Positions 1,150 through 63,976 of a DNA stretch of 64,000 nt are shown piece by piece. The notes under the pieces were generated by a model, which saw only the letters and a program-made list of their open reading frames with translations, was not told where the DNA came from and searched no databases. A program made the position numbers and the translations under genes. Source of the DNA: Rhizophagus irregularis. Taxonomy: Eukaryota; Glomeromycota; Glomeromycetes; Glomerales; Glomeraceae. The stretch covers positions 1,348,001-1,412,000 of the forward strand of contig NC_089451.1 of assembly GCF_026210795.1 (NCBI RefSeq). The letters are read 5' to 3'. The stretch's first letter is position 1. The number at the start of each line of letters is the position of its first letter.

Positions 1150-4100
1150 TTAACTAAAATCAGTAATTTCTACTGAATTATTATACATATTATCATCACA
1201 TTTTACCAAACTATCATCACCTACACCTTTATCATCTTCTGGAAGATCTCCTGTAAAAGGATTAAGCAATCGAGATGTATAAATAGCTTGTGGATGTGTA
1301 GTTTTAATTAATAAGGGGTTTGCTTTTCTATATTCATCTGCTTCTTTAAATTGCTTTTCAATTTCATAGTGTTGTTGTTCTTTTTTAACTTTCATGTTAA
1401 GTTTAAATTCTGATGCATCTAGCATATATGAGTAACGAAATAAGCAAATTAATTCTTCTATTTTAGTAGCATCTGGTCTATTCTTTGGATTTGAATTCCA
1501 ACAACTTTTCATTAAGTCAATGTAGCATTTTGGTGCTTTTGACTTATCTATTTCAGGTCTAATTCCATTACATATATTTAATGCTAAAAGATTATCATGA
1601 GCATGATCAGCAAAAGGTTGTCTTCCAGTTGCTATAAAATACATAATCATTGCAAAGCTATATATATCTGCTGCTTGAGTATAATTTTTACCTTTTAACA
1701 CCTCAGGAGCTACATAAGGCATAACTCCATAAATTTTTGTTTCATCAATATTACCAACCTCTCCACATAGTCCCATATCAGATATATATGTATCATTATA
1801 TTTAATATATTTGAATAATATATTTCCTATATGAAAATCACGATGAACCATCCGCTTTTGATGAATTTCTTTAAGACCTCTAATAATATCAATTAATATT
1901 TGAAGTCTATTTAACCAATTAAATTTTTTGTAATTTCTGTATAAATAATCATTAAAATTTCCACCTTCTGCATATTCAAGAACTATAACATAATTTTCTG
2001 TATCTTTCTGAGATATTCCATATAATTTAAGAATATTGCTACTAAAATCTTGGTTTGAATATGCTGAATATGCACTAACCTATAAAAGAAATTTATTTGT
2101 AAAATTTATTTTCAAAAAATATTTAAATTATAAATTTCATACCTCATTTAGAAACTCATCAATAAGATTATGTGAATTAATATGTAAACACTTTAAAGCA
2201 ACTTTCTTATTATTCCACATTGCTGAATATACTGTGGCAAATCCACCTTTGCCAATTTTTTCAACATTCTTGAACTGACTGTATAAAATCCATTTCAATT
2301 TAGAATTATCAATAAAATTAAAAATTTTTGCATTTTTATCATTTGATAGACATGGTTTACACAATTTGTACAAGTCATTTGCATATTTTTCACCACATTT
2401 TTCGCAGTACATTTCATTAACAACCAGTATATAATCTTTTGTATCTGGATTTTGAGATATTCCGTAACTATTATCTTCTGATTCGACCTATTTTGTCATA
2501 AAAATTATATAATTATAAAATATTAAGATACTTTAAACCACAAATGCAAAAAAAACTATGTATACCTTGTTTAATAATTCATCAATGTTATTTAGCTTGC
2601 CTTCTAAATATTTTAAAGTAACATTTTTATTTACCAAATTTCTTTCATATTTATTTGAATGTGAATTATAGTATAATGGGCCATCCTTCCATATTGCTAT
2701 AGTATCAATATTTCCTATTTCTTTAATATTACTAAACTGATTATATGGTATCCATTCAAATATTATATCCTGTGGGCTACTAATTTGTAATCGCTTTTCT
2801 TGAATTAAACGATCAATTTGACTATCTCCACTGGTCCAAATTGTAAAATTATTTTCTATATAAGCAATTTGACATAGATTACACCATTTATATTTTTTAT
2901 TGGTATATTCTTTATAACATGCTTCACAATACTTTTCAATATATTCATGAAAAACAAGAACAAAATCTTTTGTATTTAGATTTTGAGAAATTCCGTAACA
3001 AATATCTTTTGATTTAACCTGCAATATTAATTAAATACACATCAAAAAAGGATCTTTAAAATTCAGATTCATAAAAAACTTTCGTCATACCTTATTAAAA
3101 TAATCATCAAATGATAAAATATTTTGTGAGTTACAAAGATATTTTATAACAACATTTTTATTCGATTTTCTTATCAATTTTCTTTCACTAAAATTATAAT
3201 ATGATGGGCCATTCTCCCATATTGCTGTGGATCTACCATATCCTATTTCTTTAATATCATTGAGCTGATCATATGGTATCCATTCAAATATATTCCATGG
3301 TTTTTCAATTTGTAATTGCTCCTTTTGAATAAAATCATCAATTTGCTTATTTCCACTGGTCCAATTTGTAAAATTATTCTTTAGATAATTAATTTGACAT
3401 GATTTACACCATATATATTGTTTATAATAGGTGTATTCTATGTTACAGCATTTGCAACAATATTTTTCAAAATATTCTTCATGAAAAATTAAAATATAAT
3501 TCATTACAGCTGGATTTTTAGTTATTCCATAACACATGTCTTCTGATTTAACCTATATTATTATAAAATATATTTATTTGTATTCAATATAGTTTAAATT
3601 TATAAAGTAACTTCATACCTTACTTAAAAATTCATCAGAAATATATTGTAAATTATACAAATATCTTAATGCAACTCTTCCATTTGATCTTTTCCATTTC
3701 ACGAGTGAATTACATGTTTTTGATTTATTATATGCCATATTATATTTTAATAAACATATTGCTGTAGCACCAGTATTACCTACTTTTTCAATATTACTAA
3801 ATTGATTATATGGTATCCATTCAAATTGCTTTTCTTGAATAATAAATTTAATTTGCTTAAATCTGTCATTCCAGTTTGTAAAATTACTTTTCAAAAAATC
3901 AAACTGACATGATTCACACCACTTATATATTTTATCTGTATACTTTTCATCACATTTTAAACAATATTTTTCAAAATATTCTTTATGAGAAACCAAAATA
4001 TAATCTTTTGTATCTGGATTTTGTGACATTCCATAACAAATGATGTCTTTTGATTTAATCTATAATCATATAACATATATTATATTAATAAAAATACTTT

Positions 4101-7100
4101 AAATTCGAGATTATAAATAAATTTCATACCTTGTCTAAATCTTTATTAAGAATATCTGGTATCTTATGTAAATATTTTAAAGTAACATTTTTATTTACCA
4201 AAATTCTTTCATATTTATTTGAATGTGAATTATAGTATAATGGGCCATCCTTCCACATTGCTATAGTATCAATATTTTCTATTTTTTCAATGCCAGTAAA
4301 CTGATTGTATGGTATCCATTCAAATATTATATCCCATGAGCTTTCAATTTGCAATTGCTCCTTTTGAATAAAATCATCAATTTGTCTATTTCCACTGGTC
4401 CAATTTGTAAAATTATTTTTCAAAAAATCAATTTGACATGATTTACACCATTTACATTGTTTATTTGCATATCTTTTATTACAGTTTTTACAATATTTTT
4501 CAAAATATTTTTCATGAAAAACAAAGATATAATTCTTTGTATCCGGATTTTGAGATATTCCATAACTAATGTCTTTTGATTCAACCTAAATATGATTACA
4601 ATATATACCAATATTAAAAAAGAATGTTTAAACTTCTAATTTACAGAAAAAAAACTGAATTTCATACCTTATTTAGGAGTTCATTAGATAGTGAAATATT
4701 TTGTGAGTTATATAAATACTTTAAAGAAACTTTTTTATTAAAATTTCTTATATATTTATTTAAATTAACATTATAAATTAATGGACCATCCTTCCATATT
4801 GCTATAGCACCAATATTCCCCATTTCATTAATCTCATTAAACTGATCATATGGTATCCATTCAAATATTATATCCCGTGGGCCTTCAATTTGTAATTGCT
4901 TTTTTTGAATAAAATCATCAATTAGATTATTTTCACTGGTCCAATTTGTAAAATCACTCTTTAAATAATTAATTTGGCATGTTTTACACCATTTATATCT
5001 TATATATTTTTTACCACATTTTTCACAATACTTAGAATTTTCTTCAAAATATTTTTCATGAAAAACAATGATGTAATTCATTGTATCTGGATTTTGAGAT
5101 ATTCCATAACTAATGCTAACCTATAATAATAATATGATTAAAATACATACTATACATTAGAAAATAATGCTTAAACTTCAAATTTACAAAAAACTGAATT
5201 TATACCTTATTTAGAAATTGTGGAATATTTTGTGAGTCATATAAATATTTTAAAGCAACTTTTTTATTAAAATTTCTTTCATATTTATTTGATTTTGCAT
5301 TATAAATTAATGGACCATCCTTCCATATTGATATGGCACCAATATTTTCTATTTTTTCAATACTAATAAACTGACTGTATGGTATCCATTCAAATATTAT
5401 ATTCCATGGTTTTTCAATTTGCAATTGCTCTTTTTGAATAAAATCATCAATTTGCTTATTTTCACTGGTCCAATTTGTAAAATTTCTTTTCAAATAATTT
5501 ATTTGACACGGTTTACACCATTTATTTGTCGTGTATTTTTCATCACATTTTTCACAATACCTTTCAAGATATATTTTATGAAAAATAAAACTATAATCTT
5601 TTATTTCTGATTTAACCTATAATATCCAAATATATTATAAAAAAGAATATTAGATATACTGTACATATATGTATCAAATATAATTATATTATTAGGACAT
5701 TCATATAATATATGGTATATTCTTAAAAAATATATTTTAAACTAATAAAGTTTTAAACAAAATTTCATACCTTATTTAAAAATTCATTAGGATCACTTGT
5801 ATATAAAGCATATAATTTTGCCTATTTAAACACAAATACAATATATAAATATATAAGTACATTAAAAACAAAAATACTTTAACCAAAAAATAAATTAAAA
5901 CTCGATACCTTGGTTAAAACTTCATCAAAAGTATTTTGAAAGTTATGATAAAATTTTGAAGCAATTTTTTCATTCAAATTTCTTTCATATTTATTTGAAC
6001 TTGCATTACACTTCAATGGACCATTCTTACATATTTCCGTAGTACTAATGTTTTCTATATCTTTAGCACTTTTAAACTGCTCTTCTTGATTGAAAGCATC
6101 AATTCGTTTACTTTCACAGGTCCTGTTCATGAAATTACTACCTGAACGACGTTGACTATGCCATTTATATTGTTCATTTGTATATTTTTTACCATGATTT
6201 TCACGATATTTTTTTGAAATCTTTTCAAAGTATTTTTCATGAAAAACCAAAATATAATATTTTGTATCTGGATTTTGAGACATTCCATAACAAAAATTTT
6301 TTGATATAACCTATAATAAAATAATGTATTATATATACATTCAAGAAGAATGATTTAAACTCAAACGAATAAATATAAATAAATTTCATACCTTTGAAAA
6401 TTTATCAATTGATAGAATATATTGCAAATTGTATAAATATTTTAAGGCAACTTTTTTATTTATTAAATTTCTTTCATATTTTTTTGAATCTTCATTAAAC
6501 TTTAATGGACCACCCTTCCATATTGCTGTAGTATTACCATTTCCTATTTCTTCAATGCCATAAAATTGGTTATAAGGTATCCATTCAAATACTATTTTCC
6601 ATGGACTATCAATTTGTGATTGTTTTTCTTGAATAAAAGCATCAATTTGTTTATCTCCACTGGTCCAGTCTGTAAAATTACTTTTTAGATATTCAATTTG
6701 ACATGATTTACACCATTTATTTTGCTCATTGATAAATTTTTTACCACATTTTTTACAATATATTTCAAAATATTCTTCACGAAAAACAATGACGTAATCT
6801 TTTGTATCCGGATTTTGAGATATTCCATAAATAATACCTTTTGGTATAACCTATTATATCACAAAACATATATATTAAAAAGAATTTTTTAAAATTCAAA
6901 CAAATAGTAAATTTCATACCTTGTCTAAATAATCAAAAAATTGATCAGACAATGAAACATTACATAAACATTTTAAAAAAACTTCTTTATTTGACTTCCT
7001 TATCCAAATCCCACAATATAATGGACCATCCTCCCATACTGCTGTAGCAACTCCATTTCCTATTTCTTTAATATCATTAAATTGACCATATGGTATCCAT

Positions 7101-7237
7101 TCAAAAACTATGTCATCAGGCATAGTAAGTAATTGCTTTTCCCCAATGAAATAATCAATTTGTTTATTTCCGCTGGTCCAATTTTTGAAATTATCTATTA
7201 AATAATCAAATATTTTTTCACTATCTATTTCCTCCAT
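1150..7237 (-). CDS. Kinase gene A: tandem N-lobe/zinc-ribbon modules ending in a TKL-like kinase
   Basis: Proposed exons in transcript order: 7237-6920, 6850-6392, 6310-5909, 5821-5771, 5616-5206, 5120-4668, 4585-4130, 4059-3619, 3552-3091, 3018-2566, 2487-2143, 2079-1150 (about 1726 aa, all junctions phase 0, exons end AAG or GAG before GTAT and start after AG with GTT or ATT). Most internal exons encode YGISQNPDTKDYILVFHE (kinase beta4-beta5), a CxxC...WCxxC ribbon, NFTNWTSGNKQIDDFIQ, then FEWIPYNQF and a beta1-beta3/alphaC segment. Most glycine loops are degraded. Exon 2487-2143 has an intact loop (GKGGFATVYSA) and VALK lysine, and the last exon supplies HRDFHIGN (about residue 1496), DMG, APE and the HPQAIYTSRLL tail typical of these fungal kinases. 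Exon 6850-6392 has no Met but is fully open. Start: ATG at 7237 is the first in the open first exon. Catalysis by the last domain is likely; the earlier lobes are probably non-catalytic scaffolds. Confidence 0.8.
5771..5821 (-). other. 17-codon mini-exon in gene A (deleted module remnant)
   Basis: Between AG at 5823-5822 and GT at 5770-5769 lies a 51-nt open segment reading AKLYALYTSDPNEFLNK. Its start resembles the start of a long module exon in gene C (VNLYLTTSGSSP) and its end is the usual module end (EFLNK). It looks like a module exon that lost its whole interior while keeping both splice sites and phase 0. Confidence 0.6.
5909..6310 (-). other. Degenerate module exon in gene A
   Basis: The exon is open over 134 codons and begins VISKNFCYGMSQNPDTK, but the ribbon cysteines are lost (YKWHSQRRSGS replaces the usual YKWCKSCQID) and the FEWIPYNQF strand is missing. 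Only the tail with NKYERN and the LTK end remains similar. It keeps phase and splice sites, so it may still be included in the protein as a non-folding or altered linker. Confidence 0.6.
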
Positions 7238-9480: not shown

Positions 9481-9483
9481 TAC

Positions 9484-9593: not shown

Positions 9594-11485
9594 CTAAATA
9601 AAATAAATAAAAAAAAAATCAATAATTTTTATTGAATTATTATTCATATTATCATCATATTTAAGCAAACTACTGTCCATATTTTTGTCACATTGTGGAA
9701 GATCTTTTGTAAAGGAATTAAGTAACCGAGATGTATAAATAGCCTGAGGATGTGTAGCAGATTGAATATGTTTAATAGATAAAGGATTTGCCTTTCTATA
9801 TTCATCTGATTCTTTAAATTGCTTTTCAATCTTATAATGCCGTCGTTTTTTTTCAAATTTCATATTAAGTTTAACTTCTGATGCATCTAACATGTATGAA
9901 TAACGAAATGACCAAATTAATTCTTCTATTTTAAAAGCATTTGGCCTATTACTTGGATTTGGATCCCAACACTTCTTCATTAAATCAATATAACATTTTG
10001 GTGCTTTTGGTTCATTTATTTCAGGTCTAATTCCATTGCATATATTTAATGCTAATAGTTCATCATGAGCACAGTCAGAAAAGGGTTGCCTTCCAGTTGC
10101 TATAAAATACATGATCATTCCAAAACTGTATATATCTGCTGCTTGAGTATAAGGATTTCCTCTTAATATTTCGGGAGCTACGTAAGGCATAACTCCATAA
10201 ATTTTCGTTTCATCGATATTACCAATTTCTCCACATAATCCCATGTCAGAAATACATGTATTGTTATATTTAGTATGCTTAAATAATATATTTCCTATAT
10301 GGAAATCACGATGGACCATCTGCTTTTGATGAATTTCTTTAAGCCCTTTAATAATGTCAATTAATATTTGTATTTTATTTAACCAATTAAATATTTTGTA
10401 ATTTCTATATAAATAATCATTAAAATTTCCACCTTCTGCATATTCAAGAACTATAATATACTCTTCTGTATCTGGGTTCTGAGATATTCCATACAATTTA
10501 AGAATACTACTAAAATCTTGGTTTGAATATGCTGAATATGCATTAATCTATATAGAGAATATTTGTTTGTAAAAATTATTATTAATAAGTATTTAAATTA
10601 TTAGTAAATTTCATACCTCATTCAGAAACTCATCAACAAAATTCCGAGAGTTATGTAAACATTTCAGAGCAACTTTTTTTTGATCCCATGTTGCTGAATA
10701 TACTGTGGCAAAACCACCTTTGCCAATTTCTTTAACATCACTGAACTGATTGTATATTATCCATTTCAATTTAGAATAATTAATAAAGTCAAAAAGTTTT
10801 ATATTTCTATTATTTACTAAACATTGTTTACATAAATTATATAAGTCATTTGTATATTTTTCGCCACATTTTTCACAACATATTTCATTAATGACCAAAA
10901 TATAATCTTTTGTATCCAGATTTTGAGATATTCCATAACTAATTCCTTCTGGTTTTACCTAGTATTACAAGTGTATATATATAGTATATTTATATTAAAT
11001 GATATTTTAAATCTCATATATATAGTTATAATAAAGCTTCATACCTTGTTTAAATATTCATACATGAAATTTTTTTCAACATTTAAATATTTTATAGTAA
11101 CCTTTTTACCTGATTTTCTCATCCATTTTCTTTCAATAAAATTATAATATAATGGGCCATCTTTCCATGTTACTGTTGCACTATCATATCCCATTTCTTT
11201 AATGTTATTAAATTGATTGTATGGTATCCATTCAAATATCATCTCCCACAAGTTATAAATTTGTAATTGCTTTTCTTGGATATAATCATCGATTTGTTTA
11301 CTTCCACTAGTCCAATTTTCAAAATTAGCTTTTAAATAATTAATTTGACATGGATTACACCATTCATATTGTTTGTTTGAATATTCTTCACCACAAATAT
11401 TACAATAATTTTCGAAATATTTCTCATAGAAAACAAGAAAATAATTTTTTGTAACTGGATTTTGAGAAATTCCATAATTAATATC
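9594..11485 (-). CDS. Kinase gene B: one degenerate N-lobe module plus complete TKL-like kinase
   Basis: Proposed exons: 11485-11045, 10958-10617, 10547-9594 (phase 0 throughout, 578 codons before the stop). The first exon is a ribbon/N-lobe module (CNICGEEYS...WCNPC, NFENWTSGSKQIDDYIQ, FEWIPYNQF). The second gives CEKCGEKYTN, the loop GKGGFATVYSA and VALKCLH. The last has HRDFHIGN, ISDMGLCGE, MPYVAPEILRG and HPQAIYTSRLL. The ancestral acceptor at 11497 would now put the first exon out of frame; using AG eleven bases further in restores the frame from DINYGISQNP. No Met opens this exon near its edge, so translation may start at the ATG at 11251 (about 500 aa), or further upstream exons were lost. 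The kinase residues needed for catalysis are present. Confidence 0.65.
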
Positions 11486-11512
11486 CTTGAATCAACCTAT
11501 CATATTCCATGC

Positions 11513-11946
11513 CTTATTTAAAATTTTATCATCAGATGATGAAATACTTTGTAAAGTACCTTTTTCATTTGAATTCCTTTCATATTTATTTAAATCTACA
11601 TTATATTTTAATGGACCATTTTTCCATACCGCTCTAGCACCAATACTCTCTATTTCTTCAATGTCATTAAATTGATCATATGGTATCCATTCAACTATTA
11701 TATTGTCTGATGCATTTAATTGCTTTTCTCGAATATAATCATCATCCTCACTAGTCCAATTTGTAAAAATAAAAATAATCAATTCGACATGATACACACC
11801 ATTTATATTGTTTATAATAAGTGTATTCCTTACTACAATATTTGCAGTAATATTTTTCAAAATATTCTTCATGATAAACCAAAATATTATTTATCGTACC
11901 TGGATTTTGAGTCATTCCATAACTAATATATCAAACTAGCGGTAAC
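11513..11946 (-). pseudogene. Dead module exon upstream of gene B
   Basis: The module is recognisable in pieces: YGMTQNPGT and CKYCSKEYTYYKQYKWC in one frame, then NWTSEDDDYIREKQL, EWIPYDQFNDIEEI and NKYERNSNEK in another, with the frame change near 11770. The entry AG is followed by an in-frame TAG. At the 3' side the donor has become GC and only 16 nt separate it from the next old acceptor, too short for an intron, so reading through hits TGA at once. This exon is therefore broken at both ends and inside. Confidence 0.65.
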
Positions 11947-14651: not shown

Positions 14652-15107
14652 TTAAAAATATCTTGCTTGTCGTGTTTTGGTCGTATGCGGCATTTTTCGT
14701 TTAAACTTTTTTCTTTTTTCCTTCATATCGTTATCTTTATGATTTCTTGGTGTTGCTTTTTGATGGTTACTATTATCTGAAATTCTAACATTTTTTTCCA
14801 CTTTTTCTATATTTTTTCTTTGATTTCTTGTTTCGATATCTTTTAGTAACTTGTCTACTTGAAATTTTGTTTCGTCGATCCTCTTCCCAGGAGAACTATT
14901 TCCAACCCTACCTTTAATTATTTTAATTTCAATCTGTGCTGGATTTGTATTGTCAATCACGTGTATATGTGTACCAGTCTTTTCAGCAATTGGTTTTAGG
15001 TTACGTCCTTTACGACCAATTAATTTACCAATTTCAATATGTTTAGAAATTTCAATAGTGGTCGAAACGACTGAATATCTGATGGAATTTTGCATTTGGT
15101 TTTCCAT
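14652..15107 (-). CDS. Small KH-domain protein
   Basis: A single open frame of 151 aa without evident intron. Residues about 16-60 form a KH type I fold signature: TTIEISKHIEIGKLIGRKG, with the GxxG loop GRKG at residues 31-34, then NLKPIAEKTGTHIHVID and a beta strand (AQIEIKIIKG). The rest is basic and low in complexity (KERKK..KRKMPHT), which suggests RNA binding. KH domains bind single-stranded RNA or DNA through the GxxG loop; the target here is unknown. The ATG at 15107 is chosen because it opens just before the first KH strand and a duplicate at 12848 begins at the same place. Nothing suggests co-transcription with neighbours. Confidence 0.7.
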   Translation of the reverse strand: MENQMQNSIRYSVVSTTIEISKHIEIGKLIGRKGRNLKPIAEKTGTHIHVIDNTNPAQIEIKIIKGRVGNSSPGKRIDETKFQVDKLLKDIETRNQRKNIEKVEKNVRISDNSNHQKATPRNHKDNDMKEKRKKFKRKMPHTTKTRQARYF

Positions 15108-17506
15108 TTTGTGAAGAATTGATTATTCTTTTTTTATTATTATTAGAAAGAGGAAAATAAATATATAATTTTTTGTTTTTTGAAAAATGTGAATTTATAA
15201 GAGGGGAATATTTATAATTTAGCAGTTATCTCTGCAAGCAAAAACATTTTATTGACACAAAACCAACAAAAGTTTTATTACTATTTTTTTTCTTCAACAA
15301 AACCATCGTTTTTTTTATTAACAAAAAACTAAATGATTTGCACAATAAACGGGCAAAAATATTTTAAATAAATTTTGTTAAAGCCGAGATTTTATTATGA
15401 AAGACAATTATTCTCTTTTGAGCATGAAAAAAAAAATTGGTTATTTGTTATTTGAAGGATTTTCATGTGATGATAAGCGACTATCACAAAAAGGGCATGG
15501 CCGGATACTTTTGTCTGAATCATCGGCTCTTGCGCATTATAATATTAAATTACCTCATTAATTATCAATTACCCTATTTCTTACTGCGTATATTAAATCT
15601 TTAGTTTAAAGATTTCAGTTAGTTAAAGTAATTAGTCATAGTCTAAGTAGTCTATTTCGCAGAAAAGTTGTTTTTTCACACCTTTTTTTCTTGATTTTTG
15701 TTTTCTTTTCTTTCCAAATATCTTATAAAATTTTCTTGTCTTTATTTAAATTTTCTTTAAATTAGAAAGTAACTTGCATTGATTTTGTACTGGACTCGTA
15801 CTGGATTCCGTACTTGATGTTACTATAATTCTCTCGGCAATGACACTTTAGAATTGAAATAATAATGAATTCCTATTTTTTTCTTTTTGAAATGACTAAT
15901 ACCAATTTCTTGAAATGATACCTTTATTCAAAGAAATTTAGCGAACTAAAATTGGTTCGTATTTCACTAAAATTATTTGCTTTTATGTAGTGAATATTTT
16001 GTACTAGACAATGAAATAGCGACGCTCTTTATTATCAAAAATTTTTAATTATCGTGAAGTAATAATATGATACTTATTATATTTAACACTACAACCTCAA
16101 TACAATACACACAAGATACAATAAACGTTCAAATTACTGTTTTATTTCTTTTTGAAGCTAAACTTCAACGTGTTATATAATATTTAAAGGTCGCAAATGC
16201 TTATCTTATTTATCCAATCTCCCAAGGGAAACTGCAATAGTTTAGACTTAAGATATCTTCTAAACTTTTTATTAGTAATATACTATGTAACGTTTTTATT
16301 TGTCATGTGATCTTTATAAATAAAGTCAATTATTTGTAGAATAAATATTTATCGACCTTTTAATTATTTTTAAGAATTTTGGAATATTTGAAAGTTTAAA
16401 CATAATTACAAATATTTTAATTAAATATTAAAGAAACAATCGATAAAAATCTGATTGATTGTTATGTGTTTTTAATCCTTGATAAATAATAATTTACAAT
16501 TATATATTAGTAAAAGAAACTTTTAATTTAACTAGTATGATCTCTCGGTTCGTACAATACAAATCGGGATTTATGTGCCAATGATTAATATAAATATTAT
16601 TAAAAATGCATCAATAAAAATAAATGTACACTTTAGTTATTTTTATATAATGGTATAACTCTTTCAAATATTACAAATCCTCAAGCAGTTTACTTAAATA
16701 GACTTTTAGATTAAAAATATTTTAGCAGAACCAATTCATTTGAAGAATATTCACGTAATTATTATCTTAATTTATATTATGAACTTAATCGAAATATTTT
16801 TGAGCGTAAAATTTATAAAAATTATTTAGTTAAAAAATTTTGAAAACCATCTTTTTTGTTAATTTATTTCTTTAGTGCTTCCAAAATAAATACCAGTATT
16901 CAAACATTTAAACTCTTTCAAATTTTTGATTAATGATTTAAAAGTTCATAATATTAAAAATAATGATATTAAGATAAACAGGAAATTTTAATTTCAGTTA
17001 TTTTATTTTATTTATTTTTTTATAATAATAATAATTATTAGTAATCGAATTTTTCTTTCATAAACATAAATGACTATATTATAACTGAACTGAATTCATT
17101 TTTTTACCTAATAATAACTAAATAATTTTTTTTTTTATTATTGAATCTTGAAATATATATATAAAACTAATCATAAAAATTATCATTATCAATAGTAACA
17201 TGCATTAAAAAATTTATATTAAAAATTTTTGTACAATATATTCAAATCTAAATCTACGTGCTGTATCTGTCACAAATAATACCAAAATAGTAATTTATTT
17301 ATTTTTTTTTTCGTGAAATCCGTACTACGAAGTACTATATTTTCTATCAGAGTTTATAAAAAGAAATTTCTTGATGAAACTCTTTTGTGATCATCAGCTG
17401 ATTTTTGAACGCCCATCGCTGCTGTGCGACTGTAATACACGTTGATTAAAAAAAGTGTATTTTAGACGAAAATATTAAGCCGAAAATAGTAGATGTTTGA
17501 ATATTC
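15108..17506. other. Intergenic, no gene seen
   Basis: About 2.4 kb without recognisable coding content. Long A/T runs and several short palindromes (for example near 17325, CGTACTACGAAGTACTA) but no feature that I can name. Confidence 0.45.
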
Positions 17507-19329: not shown

Positions 19330-19602
19330 ATTGTTTTTTTAGTAAGTAACACTACACTAATACTAATAAGTAAAATAAATAATCAACATCGGTATCTGTC
19401 GATCCAAATTTCAAATTATAAAATCACGGAACTGATAGATCATCTATACGGGCTGAACATAGCGGCTACATAACCTATTTTGTAGTAATTTCTACTTTTG
19501 GTTTAAATATACCTTTTTAGCGATATCTTAAGAAAAAAAATTTTTTTTTGTTCAAATCTTGTCAAAAAAAAAATTTTTTTCTACAAATTTCTAAAATAAC
19601 TG

Positions 19603-38673: not shown

Positions 38674-38957
38674 GGCAATTTTTTAATTTTAATAAAAAAA
38701 ATTGATTTCCAGAATTTCAAAAAAAAATTGATCACGTTATACATATAAAATTGTGTAAATTTGATCTACGTAGTGTTAAGCCATTATTGTATCACATTCG
38801 TTGTATTTTTTTGCTATTCGCTTCGTGTTTTTACAAGTAACTTAGAGACCGATTTTAACTGATTCCTAACCGGCTCCAACCCTTCTATCCGATTTCAAAA
38901 TATTTACAGACAAAAACCATAATAAATATATTTTTTTTTTGCTAAAAGGCCTCAAAC

Positions 38958-40177: not shown

Positions 40178-41948
40178 TCAATATTGTTGCGCTGCTTGTT
40201 TAATATTTTTTTGCCATCCAATTTTCACCACGCCTAACTTTTGCAATTGCTCATCTGTTAAATCTTTTATAGCATTAACTGTAATTTCTTCTTCAAGAAA
40301 TGCATCTTCAAATTTAGCATATATATTATTACAATTATATTTCAGGTCTAAGTTATTAAGAAACTCACCAATTGATGGTAATTTGCTTGATGAAGGTAAT
40401 TCCAAATGAGTATTTGTCAGATTTTGATAAACTTGACTTGGTAATTGAATAAAAATAGGAGTAGGCGTATTGGATGTTTGACTATTTTGCATTTGCGTTG
40501 CAGAATTATTTTTATTGATAAATACACTTGATTTCATATCAAATACTGGATAAGATGGAGGAATATCATAGGTTGTTCCTTTGTTTATCTAAACAAAATT
40601 AATAATTAGTAGGTATCATTTTTCATTTGAATTTATAAAAAAGCATACTTTACATACAATTTCACGAGCCCAAAGTTGTAATCTAGAAGGATTAAGCTGC
40701 AAATGCCGACCATCTTGAATAAAACATGGAGTAGAATGTAAATCACATTTATACATTTCAACCAAATCAGCAATGACTTCGGATCTTCTTTTCTCCTCTT
40801 TTGATAAATCATCTTCTCTTAGTGAACGAGATTTCTTTTTCTTTTTGGTTTGTATTTCAATTTCTTCAGAAGATGATCTAATATTATCATCAGAATGCTA
40901 AAAAATTATAAATGTTAAATATTTTTGCCTATTATCTCGCATTATACATAAAATACTTTACCTTTTTATGTTTCCTATTTTTTTTTTCTGTCACGTTATT
41001 CTTCACAATTACTACCACTATCACTGACATTTTTTTCCCAGTTAATGTTACCTTTTGATATTCACTAATAAATTCCTGAAAATCCAATTTATCTTCAAGT
41101 GTATTTGATGGTCTACATGCATTTACAGCTTTATACGAAATAGTATAACTGTATTTTGATTTTGTTTCTTTTTCTAGAATTTTTTTAGTTGCTAAATTTA
41201 TTTTTTCTGTAAAATTTTTATAACTAGCAGGCCGAATAGTTAGAGTTTTTGCTGTAGGGATTTTTATATTATTATTTTTTACAACTAATTGTATTTTTAT
41301 TTCCTCAATAATATCAACTTCTTCATATTTTTTATTGTCATTATCACTTTCTTCATCATAATCTCCATTATCATCGTCTTCTTCATAGTTTTCATCATTA
41401 ACATCACTATCTTTGTCATAATAATCATCATCTTTATTATTAAAATCTTTATCATCGTCTCCTTCATCTTCTATTTCATTATCATTGTCTTTTTCGTTTT
41501 CTTTCTTATTATTATAACTTCCCACTTTTCTTTTACTATTTTCTGTTGGCAAATCATCTATTGAAATGATTTCTTCATTGTTTATCTGAGCTCTCCTATT
41601 GCTTTTTTTGTTACTTTTTAGTTGAGATTTTTTATCACTAGTTTTTAATCGTTGAAGTTTACTATTACAAGCACTGCAAGTAGTATAGGAAAAGTTTTTT
41701 TCAAAATTATTATTGTAACCAAATTTAGTATTTATATCTAGTAAAAAATTATTGAGTTTTGGAAAAATTTGGTTTGTAGTATAAGCACGTTGATATATTT
41801 GTTGTCCATGCAGTGGTTTTTTAACTCTTGATATTTTATCTTTCTGACACTTGCACGGATTTTCTTGTGGAAGTTTGAAACAACGCAAACACTTTTGACA
41901 TATATAACAAATACCGGGAAGGTAATTGCAAGTTAAATTTTCCGCCAT
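40178..41948 (-). CDS. Cargo gene of the transposon: Cys-rich / acidic / SAM-domain protein
   Basis: Exons 41948-40962, 40897-40649 and 40588-40178, phase 0, introns 64 and 60 nt; 548 aa. The N-terminus is cysteine-rich (CNYLPGICYICQKCLRCFKL then CKCQKDK, and later CSACNSKL), which suggests zinc binding. Residues about 140-220 are a long acidic stretch of D, E and N. A basic patch follows in exon 2 (TKKKKKSRSLREDD), then MYKCDLHSTPCFIQ and LNPSRLQLWAREIV. The last about 70 residues (PSIGEFLNNLDLKY ... EEEITVNAIKDLTDEQLQ, LGVVKIGWQKNI) fit a SAM domain, an interaction module that often polymerises. I do not know its function; as it lies between the TIRs it travels with the transposase and could help integration or regulation, or be a captured host gene. 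Confidence 0.75.
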
Positions 41949-43256: not shown

Positions 43257-46200
43257 TTAGATTTCGCAATCTAAACACTCTGAAAGAAGATCTTTTGTAA
43301 AGTGATTAAGTAATCGAGATGTATAAATAGCTTGTGGATGTGTGGTTGATTGGATATCTTTAATAAATAGGGGATTATCTTTACTATATTCTTCTGCTTC
43401 TTTAAATTGTTTTTCAATCTCATAATGCTGTTGTTCTTTTTCAATTTTCATAAAAAATTTAAACTCTGATGCGCTTAATGTAAGTGAATAATGAAATAAC
43501 CAAATAAACTCTTCTATCTTAACAGCATTTGGTCTATTATTTGGATTTGAATCCCAACACTTTTTCATTAAGTCAATATAGCAATTTGGTGCTCTTTGTT
43601 CATTTATTTCAGGTCTAATTTCATTACAAATATCTAAAGCTAAAAGTTTATCGTGCGCACGATCAGCAAAAGGTTGTCTTCCAATTGCTATGAAATACAT
43701 AATCATTCCAAAACTATATATATCTGCTGCTTGAGTATAAGGTTTTCCTCTTAATACTTCAGGAGCTACATAAGGCATAACTCCATAAATTTTTGTTTCA
43801 TCAATATTACCAACTTCTCTACATAATCCCATATCAGAAATACATATATTGATATATTCTATATGCTTAAACAATATATTCTTCGTGTGAAAGTCACAAT
43901 GGACCATCTGTTTTTGATGAATTTCTTTAAGACCTCTAATAATATTCATTAATATTTGTATTTTATTTGACCAATTAAAAGTTTTGTAATTTCTATATAA
44001 ATAATCATTAAAGTTTCCACCTTCTGCATATTCAAGAACTATAATAAATTCTTCTGTATCTGAATTTTGAGATATTCCATATATTTTAAGAATATTACTA
44101 AATTTCTGATTTGTATATGCTAAATAAGCTTCGACCTATTAAATAAGTAGTATACGTAAATTATCACATTTAAAATAATCAGATTATATAATATATTTAT
44201 ATTCATACCTCATTTAAAAATTCATAAATGAAATTTTGAGAATTATGTAAACATTTTAAAGCAACTTTCCTATTATTCCATATCGCTGAATATACTGTAG
44301 CAAAACCACCTTTTCCTATTTCTTTGATATCACTGAATTGATTATATGATATCCACTTAATTTTAGAACTATTTTTAATTATACCAATGATTCTTAAATT
44401 CTTACAATTTATTATACATGATTTACACCATTTATATACTTCATTTGTATGTTCTTTGCCACATTTTACACAGCATTTTTTGAAATGTTCTTCCAAACAA
44501 TTTTCTAATTCATCTAAATATACAAAAGAATTTTCAAACATTTTTTCATGAAAAACCAAAATATAATCTTTTGTATCTGAATTTTGAGATATTCCATAAC
44601 TAATATCTTCCATTAAATATGAGTTCACCTATTATAGTAATTATACCACAACGTTAATATATTTAATAAGCAAATTAAATTTGAAAACATTTATATACCT
44701 TGTTTAAAAATTCATCGGTAATATATTGAAAGCCATATAGGTATTTTAAAGCAATATTTCTGTTTGAATTCCTTACATATTTCTTTGAACATTTATCAAA
44801 TTTCAATGGACCATCCTTCCATAATGCTGCAGCAAACCCATTTTCTCTTTCAATAATTTCACTAAATTGATTGTATGATATCCATTCAAATACTATATCT
44901 AATGGACTATCAATTTGTAATCGCTTTTCTTGAATAAAACAATCAATTTGCTTATCTCCACTGGTCCAAATTGTAAAATTACTTTTTAAACAATCAATTT
45001 GGCATAATTTACACCATTTACATATTTCATCTGTATATTTTTCATCACAATTTTCACAATATTTTTCAAAATATTCCTTATGAGAAATTAAAATATAATC
45101 TTTTGTATCTGGATTTTGAGACATTCCATAACTGAGAGTATCTTTTAATTTAATCTATAACATTATAATATATATCATATTAATAAAAAATTTAAATTCA
45201 AATTATAAAGAAACTTCATACCTTGTCTAAAAATCCATCAAGGATACCTGGTATATTATGTAAATATTTTAAAGTAACATTCTCATTTACTGAATTTCTT
45301 TCATATTTATTTGATTTTGAATTATATTTTAATAGACCATCATTCCATATTGCTATAGCACCAATATTTTTTATTTCTTTAATTCCAGTAAAATGATTGT
45401 ATGGTATCCATTCAAATATTACATTCCATAGGTTATTAATTTGTAATTGCTCTTTTTGAATAAAATCATCAATTTGCTTATTTCCACTAGTCCAATTTGT
45501 AAAATTATTTTTCAAAAAACCAATTTGACATGGTTTACACCATTTATGTGTTTCATCTGAATAATTCTCTCCACAATACTTACAAAATTTTTCAAGATAT
45601 TTTTCATGAAAAACCAAAACATAATCCTTTGTATCCGGATTTTGAGACATTCCATAACCGATAATATCTTTTGATTTAATCTATAATATTATAATATTAT
45701 TGTATTAATACTTTAAACAAGTGATTAATAATGCAATCAATAAAAATATTTTAAATTCAAATTATACTTCATACCTTGTCTAAAAATTCATCAAGGATAT
45801 TTACTAGTATAGTATTATATAAATATTTTAAAATAACATTTTCATTCATTAAATTTCTTTCAAATTTATTTGAATTTGAATTATAATATAATGGACCATT
45901 TTTCCATATTGCTATAGCACCAATATTTTCTATTTCTTGAATGCCAGTAAACTGATTGTATGGTATCCATTCAAATATTATATTCCATGGGTTTTCAATT
46001 TGCAGTTGCTCTTTTTGAATAAAATTATCAATTTGCTTATTTCTACTGGTCCAACTTGTAAAATTACTTTTCAAAAAATCAATTTGACATGATTTACACC
46101 ATTTATTTATTTCATCTGAATAATTCTTACCGCAGCCCTTACAAAATTTTTCAAGATATTTTTCATGAAAAACTAAAATATAATCCTTTGTATCTGGATG

Positions 46201-49200
46201 TTGAGACATTCCATACCTGATAATATCTTTTGATTTCATCTATATATATAATATATATTTATTATATTAATAAAAATGTTTTAAATTCAAATTATAAATA
46301 AAGTTCATACCTTGTCTAAAAATTCATCAAGAATATCTAGTATATTATAATATGGATATTTTAAAGTAACATTTATTAAATATCTTTCATATTTATTTAA
46401 ATTTGAATTATAATATTTCGGACCATTCTTCCATGTTGCTATAGCACCAATATTTTCTATTTCTTTAATATCAGTAAATTGATTGTATGGTATCCATTCA
46501 AATATTATATCCCATGGTTTTTCAATTCGAAATTGCTCTTTTTGAATAAAATCATCAATTTGTTTATTTTCGCTAGTCCAACTTATAAAATTACTTTTCA
46601 AAAAATCAATTTTACATGATTTACACCATTTATTTATTTCATCTAAATAATTCTCGCCACAATCTTTACAAAATTTTTCAAGATAATCTTCATGAAAAAT
46701 CAAAATATAATCTTTTGTTTCTGGATTTTGAGACATTCCATAACTGGTAATATCTTTTGATTTAATCTATAATATAATATATATTTCATTTATTAGTATA
46801 GTATAGTATAAAATGAAATGATTATATAACTTAAATTCATAAATAACTTCATACCATACTTAAAAACTCATCAGATATATATTGCAAATTATACAAATAT
46901 CTTAAAGCAACTGATCTTTGTTGACCTATTAAGAAGCCATATGTTAATGGCCTATTCTTCCATATTGCTGTGGCACCAATATTCCCTATTTCTTTAATAT
47001 CACTAAACTGATCATATGGTATCCATTCGAATTGATCTTCTTGAAGAATATAAATAAAAGCTTCAATTTGTTTAATTTTACTAGTCCAATCTACAAAATT
47101 ACTTTTCAAGTAATCAATTTGACATGGTTTACACCATTTGTATATTTTAGCTGTATAATTCTCACCACAGTTTTTACAACATGTTTCAAGATATTTTTCA
47201 TTAAAAACCAAAATATAATCTTTTGTATCTGAATTTTGAGATATTCCATAACTAATATCTTCCATTAAATACGATTTCACCTATTACAGTAGTGATTATA
47301 CAACATTAATATACATAAAAGAATAATTAAAAATTAAACTTATCAACTTTTAACATACTTTGATTAAAAATTCATCGGTAATATTTTGGGAGCCATACAA
47401 ATATTTTAAAGCAACGTTTCTATTTAAATTTCTCTCATATTTCTTTGAGCATTCATCAAACTTTAATGGTCCATCTTTCCATACTACTGTAGCAAATCCA
47501 TTTTTTCTTTTTTTAATGTTACTAAACTGATTGTATGGTATCCATTCAAACATTAAATCCTGTGGGCTATTAATTTGCAATTGCTTTTTTTGAATGAATT
47601 CATCAATTTTCTTATCTCCACTGGTCCAGTTTGTAAATTTACTTTTCAAATAATTAATTTGACATGACTTACACCATTTATAATTTTCATTAGTATATTT
47701 ATTACAACAACTATCACAATAATTTTCAAAATATTTTTCATAAAATACAAAAATAAAATTTTTTGTATCTGGACTTTGAGAAATTCCTAAACAAATATCT
47801 TCTGATTTAACCTATAATGTTATAATATATATCATCTTTATTAGTATATAATATAAAAGGAAATGTTCATAGAACTTAAATTTAATTAATTCGTACCCTA
47901 CTCAAAAATTCATCAGAAATATATTGTAAATTATGTAAATATTTTAAAGCAACAACTCTTTCATATGATTCAAATAAATCATTTCCATTCATCCATGTTG
48001 CTGTAGTACCAATATTTTCTATTTCTTTAATATAACCTAACTGATTATATGGTATCCATTTAAATTGCTTTTCTTGAATCAAAGCAATAAAAGTTTCAAT
48101 TTGTTTAATTTTACTCGTCCAATCTGTAGAATTACTTTTCAAATAATAAACATGACATGATTTACACCATTTATATATTTCAACTGCATATTTTTCGCCA
48201 CATTTTTTACAATATGTTTTATAATACTTTTCAAAGTATTTTTCATTAGAAACTAAAATATAATCTTTTGTATCTGGATTTTGAGACATTCCATAACTGA
48301 TAATACCTTTTGATTTGATCTATAAGGATATTATAATATAAATATTATATTAATAAAGATATTTTAAATTCAAGTTTATAAATAAACTTCATACCTTGTC
48401 TAAAAATTCATTAGGGATATCTGGTATTTCATTATGCAAATATTTTAAAGTAACATTTTCATTTACCAAATTTCTTTCATACATATTTGAATTTGAGTTA
48501 TAACATAATGGACCACTCTTCCATATTGCTATAGCACCAATATTTTCTATTTCTTTAATGCCAGTAAACTGATTATATGGTATCCATTCAAATATTATAT
48601 TCCACGATCTTTTAATTTGCAACTGTTTTTTTTTAATAAAATCATCAATTTGTTTATTTCCACTGGTCCAATTTATAAAATTATTTTTCAAAAAATCAAT
48701 TTGACATGATTTACACCATTTGTATATTTCAACTGTATATGTTTCGCCACATTTTTTACAATATTCTTTATGATATTTTTCAAGATAATCTTCATTAAAA
48801 ACTAAAATATAATCTTTTGTATATGGATTTTGGGACATTCCATGTCCAATATTATGTGCTAGTTTAAAAGAACTACTCCCTAATAAAAAATTATAAAAAA
48901 ATCTATTTACTTTGTTTAAAAATTCATCAGAAACATTTTGTGAATTATTAAAAGATTTTAAAACAACATTTTTATTTGAATTCCTTCTATATTTTTTTAA
49001 GTCTATATTACTTTCTAATGGACCATCCTTCCATATTGCTGTAGCAATTCTATTTTCTATTTTTTTTATGGCATTAAACTGATTGTATGGTATCCATTCA
49101 AATATTGTATCCCATGGGTTTTTAATTAGTGATTGCTTTCTTTGAATAAAATAATCAATTTGCTTATTTCCACTGGTCCAATTTGTAAAATTACTTTCCA

Positions 49201-50286
49201 AAAAACCAATCTGACATGGATTACACCATTTATATATTCCATCTATTTCAGCTTTATATTTTTCACCACATTTTATACAATATTTCTCAAAATATTCTTT
49301 ATGAAAAACCAAAACATAATCTTTTGTATTTGGGTTTTGAGTTATTCCATAACTAGTAATATTTTTTAATCCATTAGCCTATAATAATATAATATATTTT
49401 ATATTTTAATATGAATATTTGAATTTGAATTTGAATTTACAAATAAAATTCATACCTTATCTAAAAACATATCAGAAATATATTGTAAATTATATAAATA
49501 TTTTAAGGCGACTTTTTCATTTAATCTTCTTTGCAAGTACATATTTGAGTCATATGCTTTAAATGAACCATCTGTATCATCACTTTTCCAATTCAATATT
49601 GCTGTAGCACCAATATTTTCTATTTCTTTAATATAACTTAACTGATCATATGGTATCCATTTAAATTGCTCTTTTTTAATAAAAGCAATAAAAACTTCAA
49701 TTTGTTCAATTCTACTAATCCAGTCAGTAAAATTACTTTTCAAAAAATCAATTTGGCATGGTTTACACCATTTATAGTGTTTATTTGTATATTCTTCACC
49801 ACATTTATCACAATATTTTTCAAAATATTTTTCGTTTAAAACCAAAATGTAATCTTCTGTATTTGGATTTTGAGACATTCCATATTCGATATTATTTGCT
49901 AAAAGTTTAAAAGGACTACTCCCTGATGTTGTTAAATATAAATTTACCTATTAAAACATAAAATACTTTTTAAAAAAAATAATTAAATTTAATGAGTAAA
50001 AGTTAAAAAAATACAAGCCTCATACCTTGTTTAAAAACTCATTAGAAACATCTTGTGAGTTATTAATAAATTTTAAAGCAACTTTTTTATTTGAATCCCT
50101 TTTATATCTTTTTAAACATACATTATAATATAATGGGCCATCCTTCCATATTGCTGTAGCGACTCCATTTCCTATTTTTTTAATGACGTTAAACTGATTA
50201 TATGGTATCCATTCAAATACAACTTTCCTTAAGATATAATTATCTTTCAAATATTTTTTTATATCTTTGTCATTTTTTTCCTCCAT
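43257..50286 (-). CDS. Kinase gene C: tandem N-lobe/zinc-ribbon modules ending in a TKL-like kinase
   Basis: Proposed exons: 50286-50026, 49947-49456, 49378-48395, 48319-47897, 47811-47359, 47280-46855, 46766-46311, 46239-45775, 45680-45222, 45154-44699, 44628-44209, 44135-43257; all phase 0, about 2057 aa. Twelve N-lobes can be counted: one in exon 1 (IGNGVATAIWKDGP), two in the fused exon 49378-48395, one in each other exon, and the last (GKGGFATVYSAIW, VALKCLH) joined to the full C-lobe. Each module repeats YGMSQNPDTKDYILVFHEKY, CxxC...KWCKSC, FTNWTSGNKQIDDFIQ and EWIPYNQF. Three modules in a row (46766-45222) are especially alike, pointing to recent duplication. In the last domain HRD is HCD (Cys for Arg, near residue 1845); Asp, DMG and APE remain, so activity-loop control may differ rather than catalysis being lost. 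Start: ATG 50286, MEEKNDKDIKKYL, comparable to MEEIDSEKIFDYL of gene A. Confidence 0.8.
48395..49378 (-). other. Double-module exon in gene C (intron lost)
   Basis: This exon is open over 328 codons and holds two complete modules. At the point where every other pair is separated by an intron the sequence reads FLNKVNRFFYNFLLGSSSFK. The neighbouring exon begins VNLYLTTSGSSPFKLL directly after its AG, so the joint falls exactly at the old exon border. A residual intron is not plausible (the only GT..AG candidate is 31 nt and would break the frame). Confidence 0.7.
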
Positions 50287-57367: not shown

Positions 57368-57370
57368 GAA

Positions 57371-60479: not shown

Positions 60480-63400
60480 TCAGATTTCGCAATCTAAACA
60501 CTCTGAAGGAAGATCTTTTGTGAAATGATTAAGTAATCGAGATGTATATATAGCTTGTGGATGTGTAGTTGATTGGATATCTTCAATAAATAGAGGATTT
60601 TCTTTACTATATTCTTCTGCTTCTTTAAATTGTTTTTCAATTTCATAATGTTGCTCTTTTTCAATTTTCATAAAAAATTTAAACTCTGATGCGCTTAATG
60701 TAAGTGAATAATGAAATAACCAAATAAATCTTTCTATCTTAACAGCATTTGGTCTATTATTTGGATTTGAATCCCAACACTTTTTCATTAAGTCGATATA
60801 GCATTTTGGTGCTCTTGGTTCATTTATTTCAGGTCTAATTCCATTACAAATATCTAAAGCTAAAAGTTTATCGTGAGCACGATTGGCAAAAGGTTGACTT
60901 CCAGTTGCTACAAAATACATAATCATTCCAAAACTATATATATCTGCTGCTTGAGTATAAAGTTTTCCTCTTAATACTTCAGGAGCTACAACTCCATAAA
61001 TTTTTGTTTCATCAATATTACCAACTTCTCCACATAATCCCATATCTGAAATACATATATTGATATATTCTATATGCTTAAACAATATATTCTTCGTGTG
61101 AAAGTCACGATGGATCATCTGCTTTTGATGAATTTCTTTAAGACCTTTAATAATATTCATTAATATTTGTAATTTATTTGACCAATTAAAACTTTTGTAA
61201 TTTCTATATAAATAATCATTAAAGTTTCCACCTTCTGCATATTCAAGAACTATAATAAATTCTTCTGTATCTGAATTTTGAGACATCCCATATATTTTAA
61301 GAATATTACTAAATTTCTGATTTGTATATGCTAAATAAACTTCAACCTATTAAAATAAGTATATATAAATTATTACAATGATTAAAAAATAATCAGATCA
61401 TAAAAATATTTTATATTCATACCTCATTTAGAAATTCATAAATGAAATTTTGAGAATTATGTAAACATTTTAAAGCAACTTTCCTATTATTCCATATTGC
61501 TGAATATACTGTAGCAAAACCACCTTTTCCTATTTCTTTGATATCACTTAATTGATTATATGGTATCCACTTAATTTTAGAATTAATTTTAATGACGTTA
61601 ACAATTCTTATATTCTTACAATTTATCATACATAATTTACACCATTTATATACTTCACTTGTATATTCTTTACCACATTTTACACAATATTTTTCAAAAT
61701 GTTCTTCTAAACACTTTTCTAAATATTTATTTAAATATTCATAAGAATTTTCAAACATTTTTTCATGAAAAACCAAAATATAATCTTTTGTATCTGAATT
61801 TTGAGATATTCCATAACTAGTTAAATATGAGTTCACCTATTATAGTAATTATACCATAACGTTAATATATTTAATAAGCAAAATTAAATTTATAAACATT
61901 TATATACCTTGTTTAAAAATTCATCAGTAATATATTGAAAGTCATATAGGTATTTTAAAGCAACATTTCTGTTTAAATTCCTTACATATTTTTTTGAACA
62001 TCTATCAAATTTTAATGGACCATCCTTCCATACCGCTGCAGCAAACCCATTTTCTCTTTCTCTAATATCACTAAACTGATTGTATGATATCCATTCAAAT
62101 ACTATATCTAATGGACTATCAATTTGTGATCGCTTTTCTTGAATAAAACAATCAATTTGCTTATCTCCACTGGTCCAACTTGCAAAATTACATTCCAAAA
62201 AATCAATTTGACATGATTTACACCATTTATTTATTTCATCTGGATAATTCTCCCCGCAATCCTTACAAAATTTTTCAAGATATTTTTCATGAAAAACTAA
62301 AATATAATCTTTTGTATCTGGATTTTGAGACACACCATAACTGGTAATATCTTTTGATTTAATCTATGATATAATATATATTTCATTTATTAGTATATAG
62401 TATAAAAGGAAATGTTTATATAACTTAAATTCATAAATAACTTCATACCATACTTAAAAACTCATCAGATATATATTGCAAATTATACAAATATCTTAAA
62501 GCAACTGATCTTTGTTGGCCTATTAAGAAGTCATATATTAATGGCTTATTTTTCCATATTGCTGTGGCGCCAATATTTCCTATTTCTTTGATATCACTAA
62601 ACTGTTCATATGGTATCCATTTGAATTGCTCTTTTTGAAGAAAATCAATAAAAGCTTCAATTTGTTTAATTTTAGTCCAGTCTATAAAATTACTTTTCAA
62701 GTAATCAATTTGACATGGTCTACACCATTTATATTTCATATTTGTATATTTTTCATCACATTTTAAACAATATTTTTCAAAATATCCTTTATAAGAAACC
62801 AAAATATAATCCTTTGTATCTGGATTTTGAGACATTCCATAACTGACAATATCTTTTGATTTAACCTATAACAATTCAATATATATTATATTAATAAAAA
62901 TGGTTTAAATTAAAGATTATAAATGGACTTCATACCTTATCTAAAACTTCAAGGATATCTAATATATCAGATAAACTAACATTTTCATTTTCCAATTTTC
63001 TTTCATATTTATTTAAATTTGAATTATAATATAATGGACCATTCTTCCATATTGCTATAGTACCAATATTTTCTATTTCTTGAATGCCAGTAAGCTGATT
63101 GTATGGTATCCATTCAAATACCATTTCTGATGGATTATAAATTTGTAATTGCTTTTCTTGAATAAAATTATCGATTTGTTTATTACCACTGGTCCAGTTT
63201 ATAAAATTATTTTTCAAAAAATCAATTTGACATGGTTTACACCATTTATATTTTATATTTATATATTCTTCATCACATTTTAAACAATATATTTCAAAAT
63301 ATTCTTTATGGGAAACCAGGATATAATCCTTTGTATATGGATTTTGAGACATTCCATAACTGGCAATATCTTTTGATTTAACCTATAATAATATAATATA

Positions 63401-63976
63401 TATATATATATTAATAAAATATTTTAAATTCAAGATTATAAATGGACTTCATACCTTATCTAAAAATTCATCAAGGATATCTAATATATTGGATAAATAT
63501 TTTAAACTAACATTTTCATTTATCAATTTTCTTTCATATTTATTTAAATATGGTTTATAATATAATGGACCATTTTTCCATATTGCTATAGCACCAATAT
63601 TTCCTATCTCTTGAATGCTAGTAAACTGATTGTATGGTATCCATTCAAATATTATATTCTATTGGTTTTCAATTTGCAGTTGTTTTTTTTGAATAAAATC
63701 ATCAATTTGCTTATTTCCACTAGTACTAGTCCAATTTGTAAAATTATTTTTCAAAAAACTAATTTGACATGGCTTACACCACTCATATATTACATCTGAG
63801 TAATTCTCACCACAGTTCTTACAACATGTTTCAAGATATTTTTCATGAAAAACTAAAATATAATCTTTTGTATCTGGATTTTGAGACATTCCATAACAAT
63901 AATTATAATTATCATTACCATCATAATATAATGAATTTGTAATAAACTCATCCTCTGTTGTTAAATATGATTTTAC
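60480..63976 (-). CDS. Kinase gene D (partial, 5' end outside window), paralogue of gene C
   Basis: Visible exons: 63976-63455, 63382-62936, 62865-62449, 62363-61908, 61836-61423, 61346-60480; all phase 0, 1041 codons including the stop. The first visible exon begins after AG with VKSYLTTEDEFITNSLYYDG and continues into a standard module, so more exons lie upstream. Modules repeat CGENYSDVIYEWCKPC, NWTS..GNKQIDDFIQ and EWIPYNQ. Exon 61836-61423 has the intact loop GKGGFATVYSAIW and VALKCLH; the last exon has HRDFHTKN, SDMGLCGE and HPQAIYTSRLL. Compared with genes A-C, three residues (MPY) are missing just before APE, in the substrate-binding P+1 region. A TAG at 63659 replaces the Trp codon of the usual NPWNIIFEW. 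Protein identity with gene C is very high in the last two exons. Either a damaged gene or one starting downstream of the stop. Confidence 0.7.
63659..63661 (-). other. In-frame TAG in first visible exon of gene D
   Basis: The codon series ATT GAA AAC CAA TAG AAT ATA aligns with ATT GAA AAC CCA TGG AAT in gene C: one change makes TGG into TAG. The frame is open on both sides up to the splice sites. Confidence 0.8.

Follow-up and report, generated by a model that had tools for sequence, protein, structure and literature searches.

Arrays of predicted kinase N-lobes precede a single TKL-type C-lobe in genes of Rhizophagus irregularis

We analysed a 64,000-nucleotide stretch of the genome of the fungus Rhizophagus irregularis (contig NC_089451.1, positions 1,348,001 to 1,412,000; G000:C23:1348001-1412000, hereafter the window), with about 25% guanine plus cytosine, in an assembly of 146.7 Mb and 32 contigs. 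The window contains five kinase gene arrays, A to E, in which predicted kinase N-lobes are repeated ahead of one C-lobe. A sequence-only reading of this DNA had proposed that in each exon a cysteine ribbon lies between the end of one N-lobe and the beginning of the one that follows, giving about 10 (A) and 12 (C) N-lobes in tandem, and this is what we found in both genes. Gene A starts with an ATG at 7237, has 11 main exons that include 10 N-lobe front halves, and ends with its C-lobe exon at 1150; gene C starts with an ATG at 50286, includes 12 front halves and ends at 43257 (Table 1). An inner exon starts with beta4-beta5 of one N-lobe (YGISQNPDT..ILVF), continues through a four-cysteine ribbon and a helical linker (NWTSGN..IDxFIQ), and ends with beta1-beta3-alphaC of the next N-lobe; the last exon carries beta4-beta5 and the sole C-lobe. 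The glycine-loop motif GKGGFATVY was confined to the last unit in both A and C, and no linker stretch occurred in the terminal unit of A, B, C or D. All junctions in A and C are in phase 0. Because the commonest donor (exonic AAG followed by GTATGA) and the acceptor TAG place stop codons in phase 0, stop-to-stop open reading frames (ORFs) correspond approximately to exons; at 48395-49378 in gene C the intervening stretch is open in frame, so that one ORF holds two units. Neither the ribbon cysteines nor EWIPY survive in the third unit of A. The segment between alphaC and beta4 is short in the upstream units of A to D compared with the terminal kinase, and of full length at loci L002, L005 and L007, among others elsewhere in the genome.

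Genes B, D and E follow the plan of A and C, as had been proposed, but with frame breaks or stop codons, and D starts outside the window: the front of its first exon was matched 45-344 bases past base 64000 (L001). Between exons 3 and 4 of gene A, a short exon-like stretch (5616-5879, minus strand) ends in ..FLNK and the donor GTATGA, and may be what is left of a former unit. First exons were of two kinds, one with an ATG and a ribbon (MSSQNDIICESC type; L002, L005, L007, L008 and L014) and one with an ATG and the helical linker but no ribbon (A, C, L006, L009 and L011).

Table 1 Exons and units of the five N-lobe arrays in the window (positions counted from the first base of the window)
Gene	Feature	Position	Strand
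A	Exon 1: ATG, helical linker, front half of N-lobe 1, ribbonless	6920-7237	-
A	Exon 2: N-lobe 1 end, ribbon, linker, N-lobe 2 start	6392-6850	-
A	Exon 3: degenerate unit (ribbon Cys, EWIPY gone), frame still open	5909-6310	-
A	Exon 4: unit without YGISQNP motif, with ribbon	5206-5616	-
A	Exon 5: unit	4668-5120	-
A	Exon 6: unit	4130-4585	-
A	Exon 7: unit	3619-4059	-
A	Exon 8: unit	3091-3552	-
A	Exon 9: unit	2566-3018	-
A	Exon 10: terminal unit, intact glycine loop GKGGFATVYSA, VALK, FLNE	2143-2487	-
A	Exon 11: beta4-beta5 and only C-lobe (HRDFHxxN, DMG, APE), TKL-type	1150-2079	-
B	Decayed upstream (first) unit, internal frame changes	11495-11930	-
B	N-lobe exons 11045-11491 and terminal 10617-10958	10617-11491	-
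B	C-lobe exon	9594-10547	-
C	Exon 1: ATG, linker, front half of N-lobe 1	50026-50286	-
C	Exon 2: unit	49456-49947	-
C	Two units, single open frame	48395-49378	-
C	Unit	47897-48319	-
C	Unit	47359-47811	-
C	Unit	46855-47280	-
C	Unit	46311-46766	-
C	Unit	45775-46239	-
C	Unit, query for genome-wide protein search	45222-45680	-
C	Unit	44699-45154	-
C	Terminal unit, glycine loop intact	44209-44628	-
C	C-lobe exon, HCD replacing HRD	43257-44135	-
D	Unit with in-frame TAG at 63659-63661	63455-63976	-
D	Four unit exons: 62936-63382, 62449-62865, 61908-62363, terminal 61423-61836	61423-63382	-
D	C-lobe exon, short deletion in activation segment just before APE	60480-61346	-
E	Three N-lobe pieces, different subfamily; first with in-frame stop; terminal loop AKGGFGKVY	34231-35628	+
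E	C-lobe exon, frame change near start	35744-36619	+

Arrays of consecutive units, which the sequence-only reading had suggested looking for, were found at 29 further places, giving 34 arrays examined in total. When a single unit of C was used as the query, the best 150 of 4,059 candidates all had E < 1e-36, and many lay in runs about 540 bases apart. A DNA pattern for WI[PS]Y...W[KN][DN]G matched the genome exactly at 855 sites, and at none when reversed, so the unit pattern is not a product of chance. A shorter N-lobe pattern gave 1,232 sites (0 reversed), the C-lobe pattern KIYGVxPY 187 (1 reversed) and KIYGVMPYV 63 (0 reversed); such counts refer to individual motifs rather than to genes. 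Fifteen of the 29 arrays come from L002-L015, loci picked non-randomly for dense matches, and two were picked, also non-randomly, for length. The remaining 12 were drawn at random from the 53 previously unseen sites among the 63 of KIYGVMPYV, and represent that single C-lobe class only. An array ended at 12/12 of these random sites, with 4-15 units each (9, 15, 7, 12, 7, 12, 5, 4, 7, 9, 7 and 13 scored units; those at L021 and L026 are possibly longer). Across the 34 arrays, scored units ranged from 2 to 25, and each array had one C-lobe at its end, that of L012 being broken. The ribbon, claimed as part of the unit, was there in A and C but is not universal: the two long arrays, of 21 and 25 units, have none, which indicates that the N-lobe rather than the ribbon is the constant part. 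Mean identity was 0.66 within and 0.53 between arrays and only 12/28 arrays were more alike internally than to their best other array, and we do not claim concerted evolution. A prokaryotic or viral origin was rejected, with 0/119 stretches confirmed in genome_contigs and 0/32 in viral_contigs.

Scoring of the glycine loop separated the last unit from nearly all others. The GGF motif occurred in 32/32 scored terminal units vs 2/252 scored upstream units; incomplete units were excluded, as were the terminals of L012 and L015, both of which read GKGGFSTVY in the printed ORFs. The proposal that only the last N-lobe has an intact glycine loop and a joined C-lobe was thus borne out across the 34 arrays, except for the two upstream units with GGF. 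Loss of the upstream loop took different forms in different array families, being a shortening to 15-20 residues in most window-type units and elsewhere a GKNG substitution at the usual 22 residues or a lengthening up to 25. In the window and L001-L015, upstream loops were mostly 17-19 residues long (range 15-20) vs 22 in correctly assigned terminals, with exceptions in units 1 and 2 of L014 (22 and 21) and unit 1 of E (22); four readings of 13 residues were early regular-expression hits, and two units gave no reading. Shortening as a general mark of upstream units was rejected, because upstream loops elsewhere often have 22-25 residues. The loop-length readings and the column table used for lysine and glutamate both mis-assigned the terminals of D, L012 and L015, unlike the GGF scoring, in which the D terminal is correctly assigned.

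Other positions were largely kept. Upstream units in the window and L001-L015 retained the beta-3 lysine in 102/111 cases (230/252 by a loose pattern over the 34 arrays), the W of the A-x-W motif in 105/111, and the four ribbon cysteines in 97/98, 97/98, 97/98 and 100/102. In the column table, with its three mis-assigned terminals, the terminal beta-3 lysine was present in 20/20, and the alphaC glutamate in 16/19 terminal vs 32/80 upstream units, where the other 48 had lysine. The putative zinc ribbon, where present, has near-invariant cysteines, and gave weak, sub-threshold Pfam matches to several ribbon families and no fold that could be assigned with confidence.

The order of the N-lobe strands could be read directly in two arrays. 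In L012 no intron separates units 1 and 2 (..TDELINNVETYLKSDVIFGIS..); the related L006 has an intron at this point. L013 is likewise intronless there, with different junction residues. Since both read across the predicted junction, the genome itself shows the conventional N-lobe order. AlphaFold2 modelling of the L013 stretch (267 residues, 97 sequences) gave a predicted local distance difference test score (pLDDT) of 70.6 and a predicted template modelling score (pTM) of 0.47; the model shows beta1-beta3, a short alphaC and beta4-beta5. All 50 Foldseek matches and all 50 matches of VIA, a second look at the Foldseek list, that were listed for this model are kinases, mostly over the N-lobe; in VIA, model residues of about 25-159 were aligned, mostly to N-lobes. 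The upstream and terminal units of L013 share 33% identity (E 3e-17 in that comparison). The N-lobe fold of upstream units is supported by a moderate model. A permuted arrangement, in which each exon is a folding unit whose own beta4-beta5 completes the sheet of its own beta1-beta3, would suit the presence of all five strands once per inner exon in permuted order. It is highly improbable, as beta4-beta5 is missing from exon 1 of both A and C while the C-lobe exon supplies its own, and both the L013 model and the VIA alignments run in the conventional order beta1-beta3, alphaC, beta4-beta5.

The upstream units were also assessed as coding sequence. The ratio of non-synonymous to synonymous substitution (omega) was estimated by the Nei-Gojobori method from reciprocal-best pairs between arrays, with a floor of 0.05 on synonymous divergence (dS). 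Median omega was 0.46 for upstream units (21 pairs), 0.50 for terminal units (7 pairs) and 0.30 for C-lobes (7 pairs); within arrays it was 0.46 for upstream units (21 pairs) and 0.31 for the two long arrays (5 pairs). Upstream units are under mild purifying selection. When neutral change was simulated, the share of exons still free of stops was 14% after 0.05 substitutions per site and 2% after 0.10. An in-phase GT followed within at most 7 codons after 245/246 units, 136 of them with GTATGA, and 110/143 tested ORF starts came right after TAG. Chance ORFs or decayed copies are ruled out by omega, the neutral simulation and the conservation of the donor site. One gene per exon is unlikely, because inner ORFs start at or near an acceptor and an ATG-type first exon stands at the 5' end (judged by eye and uncounted, in A, C and most other arrays inspected). 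The same splice signals bear on whether the exons serve as cassettes for alternative splicing, with phase-0 skipping varying the array length or the N-lobe joined to the C-lobe. Phase-0 junctions throughout gene A and in-phase donors elsewhere would permit this, skipping would also bypass the stop codon of D, and excerpts of PMC11378527 report alternative splicing of exon-per-repeat arrays in brown algal LRR-ROCO genes. We nevertheless consider this use quite unlikely, because no normal glycine loop is available upstream (GGF in 2/252) and a swapped-in unit would probably give a dead kinase.

At the end of the array stands a predicted TKL kinase. The C-lobe exon of A matched Pfam PK_Tyr_Ser-Thr at 2.6e-35, and its closest solved relatives by sequence were ROCO4 and RIPK1. 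Among 35 C-lobe exons (34 from the arrays and one from a Sel1-repeat kinase gene in the window), the catalytic-loop D was present in 34, an exact HRD in 26, DxG in 32 and APE in 35, and 31/35 had D, DxG and APE together. The predicted terminal kinase combines these motifs with GGF, the beta-3 lysine and the alphaC glutamate in the joined N-lobe. The longest of the arrays examined (X2; L018 and L019, C2:763500-778500; 25 units) has a terminal C-lobe that lacks the catalytic-loop motif and may therefore belong to a pseudokinase. The Sel1-repeat TKL kinase gene (19600-26924, plus strand) has one open frame of 1,999 residues, in which Pfam marks 48 Sel1 stretches (bits 1686). The frame ends in the same ribbon-linker-N-lobe unit and is followed by a C-lobe exon, so that either Sel1 or N-lobe repeats can stand ahead of a related terminal kinase module.

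The N-lobe architecture is well supported by these comparisons of sequence, from which the function is predicted. We think it probable that the arrays are single genes, in which the N-lobe repeats form a non-catalytic array, the predicted binding or docking region of one TKL kinase. The exons would join into one mRNA, and the array would serve as a repeat region that binds proteins, for docking or sensing, and that positions the kinase at its end or regulates it. Contacts between N-lobes are known from RIPK and RAF kinases, and contacts of this kind could mediate control of the kinase by the array. The upstream N-lobes have lost the usual nucleotide-binding loop and retain their strands, in most cases the beta-3 lysine, and the ribbon where present. 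Array length would grow and shrink by in-frame tandem exon duplication, which equal exon phases allow without a break of frame. More tentatively, the N-lobe may be a free-standing repeat domain, the N-lobe counterpart of KIND, and the arrays a genome-wide modular repertoire for intracellular recognition or kinase docking, its length set by exon duplication.

Several observations weigh against the docking-array reading, beginning with selection. Omega near 0.5 denotes weak constraint, and exceeded 1 in 3/23 reciprocal-best upstream pairs; the two pairs dropped for dS < 0.05 (L002_1/L007_1 and L004_1/L010_1) had values of 1.6 and 1.8. The variable beta2-beta3 loop showed no excess of amino-acid change in the ratio of non-synonymous to synonymous differences per site (pN/pS): it was 0.59 vs 0.56 elsewhere in ribbonless arrays at pS < 0.4, and 0.54 vs 0.58 elsewhere in ribbon arrays, in which a loop value of 2.9 below pS 0.15 stems from one synonymous change and was unused. 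As this loop is the most variable segment, the values argue against a fast arms race. Some arrays also appear disabled (B, D, E and L012), and the C-lobe of X2 is without its catalytic-loop motif. On the side of the fold, the L013 model is of moderate quality (pTM 0.47), none of its Foldseek matches passes E 0.001 (best 1.0e-3), the top matches have template modelling scores of about 0.2 and root-mean-square deviations of about 9-11, and VIA Z is at most 6.8, rated middling by the tool. Structure prediction gave matches to kinase N-lobes for L013 and a poor model for the two-unit ORF of gene C (pLDDT 55.8, unused), which leaves the units of A, C and D, with their shortened alphaC, unconfirmed as stable N-lobes. 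The Pfam kinase models PF00069 and PF07714 matched 0/97 upstream sequences at E <= 0.01, and 13 other Pfam families matched one to three of the 97 each. Missing matches are partly due to half-domain length, since terminal N-lobe exons alone gave Pfam kinase values of 1.7e-4 to 7.4e-4, below curated cut-offs. A sequence profile of the unit, searched against solved structures, had two matches only, both non-kinase (E 0.52 and 0.81).

Part of this evidence would also suit a neutral ratchet, in which tandem exon duplication adds tolerated in-frame modules that are kept foldable but do no specific work. Such a process would account for the wide variation in unit number (2 to 25), for omega of only about 0.5, for the absence of diversifying selection in the variable loop and for the disabled units in several arrays. 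The near-complete retention of the ribbon cysteines and of the W of A-x-W (105/111), the loss of the glycine motif upstream with its retention at the end of every array scored, and the recurrence in 12/12 random genes point the other way, and we regard the ratchet as unlikely.

Beside the kinase genes, the window holds transposase-like gene pieces at 38946-40050 (plus strand; a weak HTH_23 match and DDE_3 at 1.7e-18), a SAM domain ORF at 40178-40588 (minus strand; Pfam SAM_1 5.1e-08) and a KH-domain ORF at 14652-15122 (minus strand; Pfam KH_1 4.8e-07). An acidic ORF (40932-41948) adjoins the SAM ORF and had no Pfam match at E 0.01.

We know of no TKL family with repeats of its own N-lobe ahead of the kinase. 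The terminal C-lobe of A, with its catalytic D, DMG and APE, resembles TKL kinases of the ROCO4, RIPK1, TAK1 and MLK type. Among the matches listed, the open-access PubMed Central literature, as far as its searched text extends, contained no description of tandem N-lobe arrays, which together with the lack of Pfam kinase matches agrees with the proposal that no family so built has been described. Large kinase expansions are reported in R. irregularis (PMC6123716, PMC8647823), where the excerpted texts make no mention of N-lobe arrays; according to the former, PF07714 is the most frequent motif in species-specific and rapidly expanded genes. If translated, the arrays would represent a new repeat type unrecognised by Pfam kinase models, and would provide a structural handle on the most-expanded kinase families of an arbuscular mycorrhizal fungus, as those families appear in the excerpts of PMC6123716. 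Regulation of those kinases would become a testable question about the roles of the modules in binding.

Plant tandem kinase proteins are generally built of complete two-lobe domains, and a decoy role is attributed to them. In members such as Pm57, kinase and pseudokinase parts stand in one protein. The arrays differ in that their upstream modules have no C-lobe; all 34 have a single terminal C-lobe, rather than the at least two complete kinase or pseudokinase domains of tandem kinase proteins. Brown algal LRR-ROCO genes, in the excerpts of PMC11378527, place one repeat in each exon, undergo exon shuffling, are proposed immune receptors and show diversifying selection. The arrays share with them the repeat-per-exon plan and equal phase, with exceptions at 48395-49378 of C, L012 and L013, but the repeats are LRRs there and N-lobes here, and the diversifying selection reported for the algal genes was not found in the beta2-beta3 loop. 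In KIND, according to excerpts of PMC3415841, half of a kinase stands alone as a non-catalytic module. Very-KIND carries two such domains. Isolated C-lobes are known as binding domains, and lone N-lobes repeated up to 25 times are undescribed in the open-access text searched. KIND is an isolated C-lobe, whereas the modules of the L013 model align to N-lobes, and the arrays described here set up to 25 N-lobes in a row.

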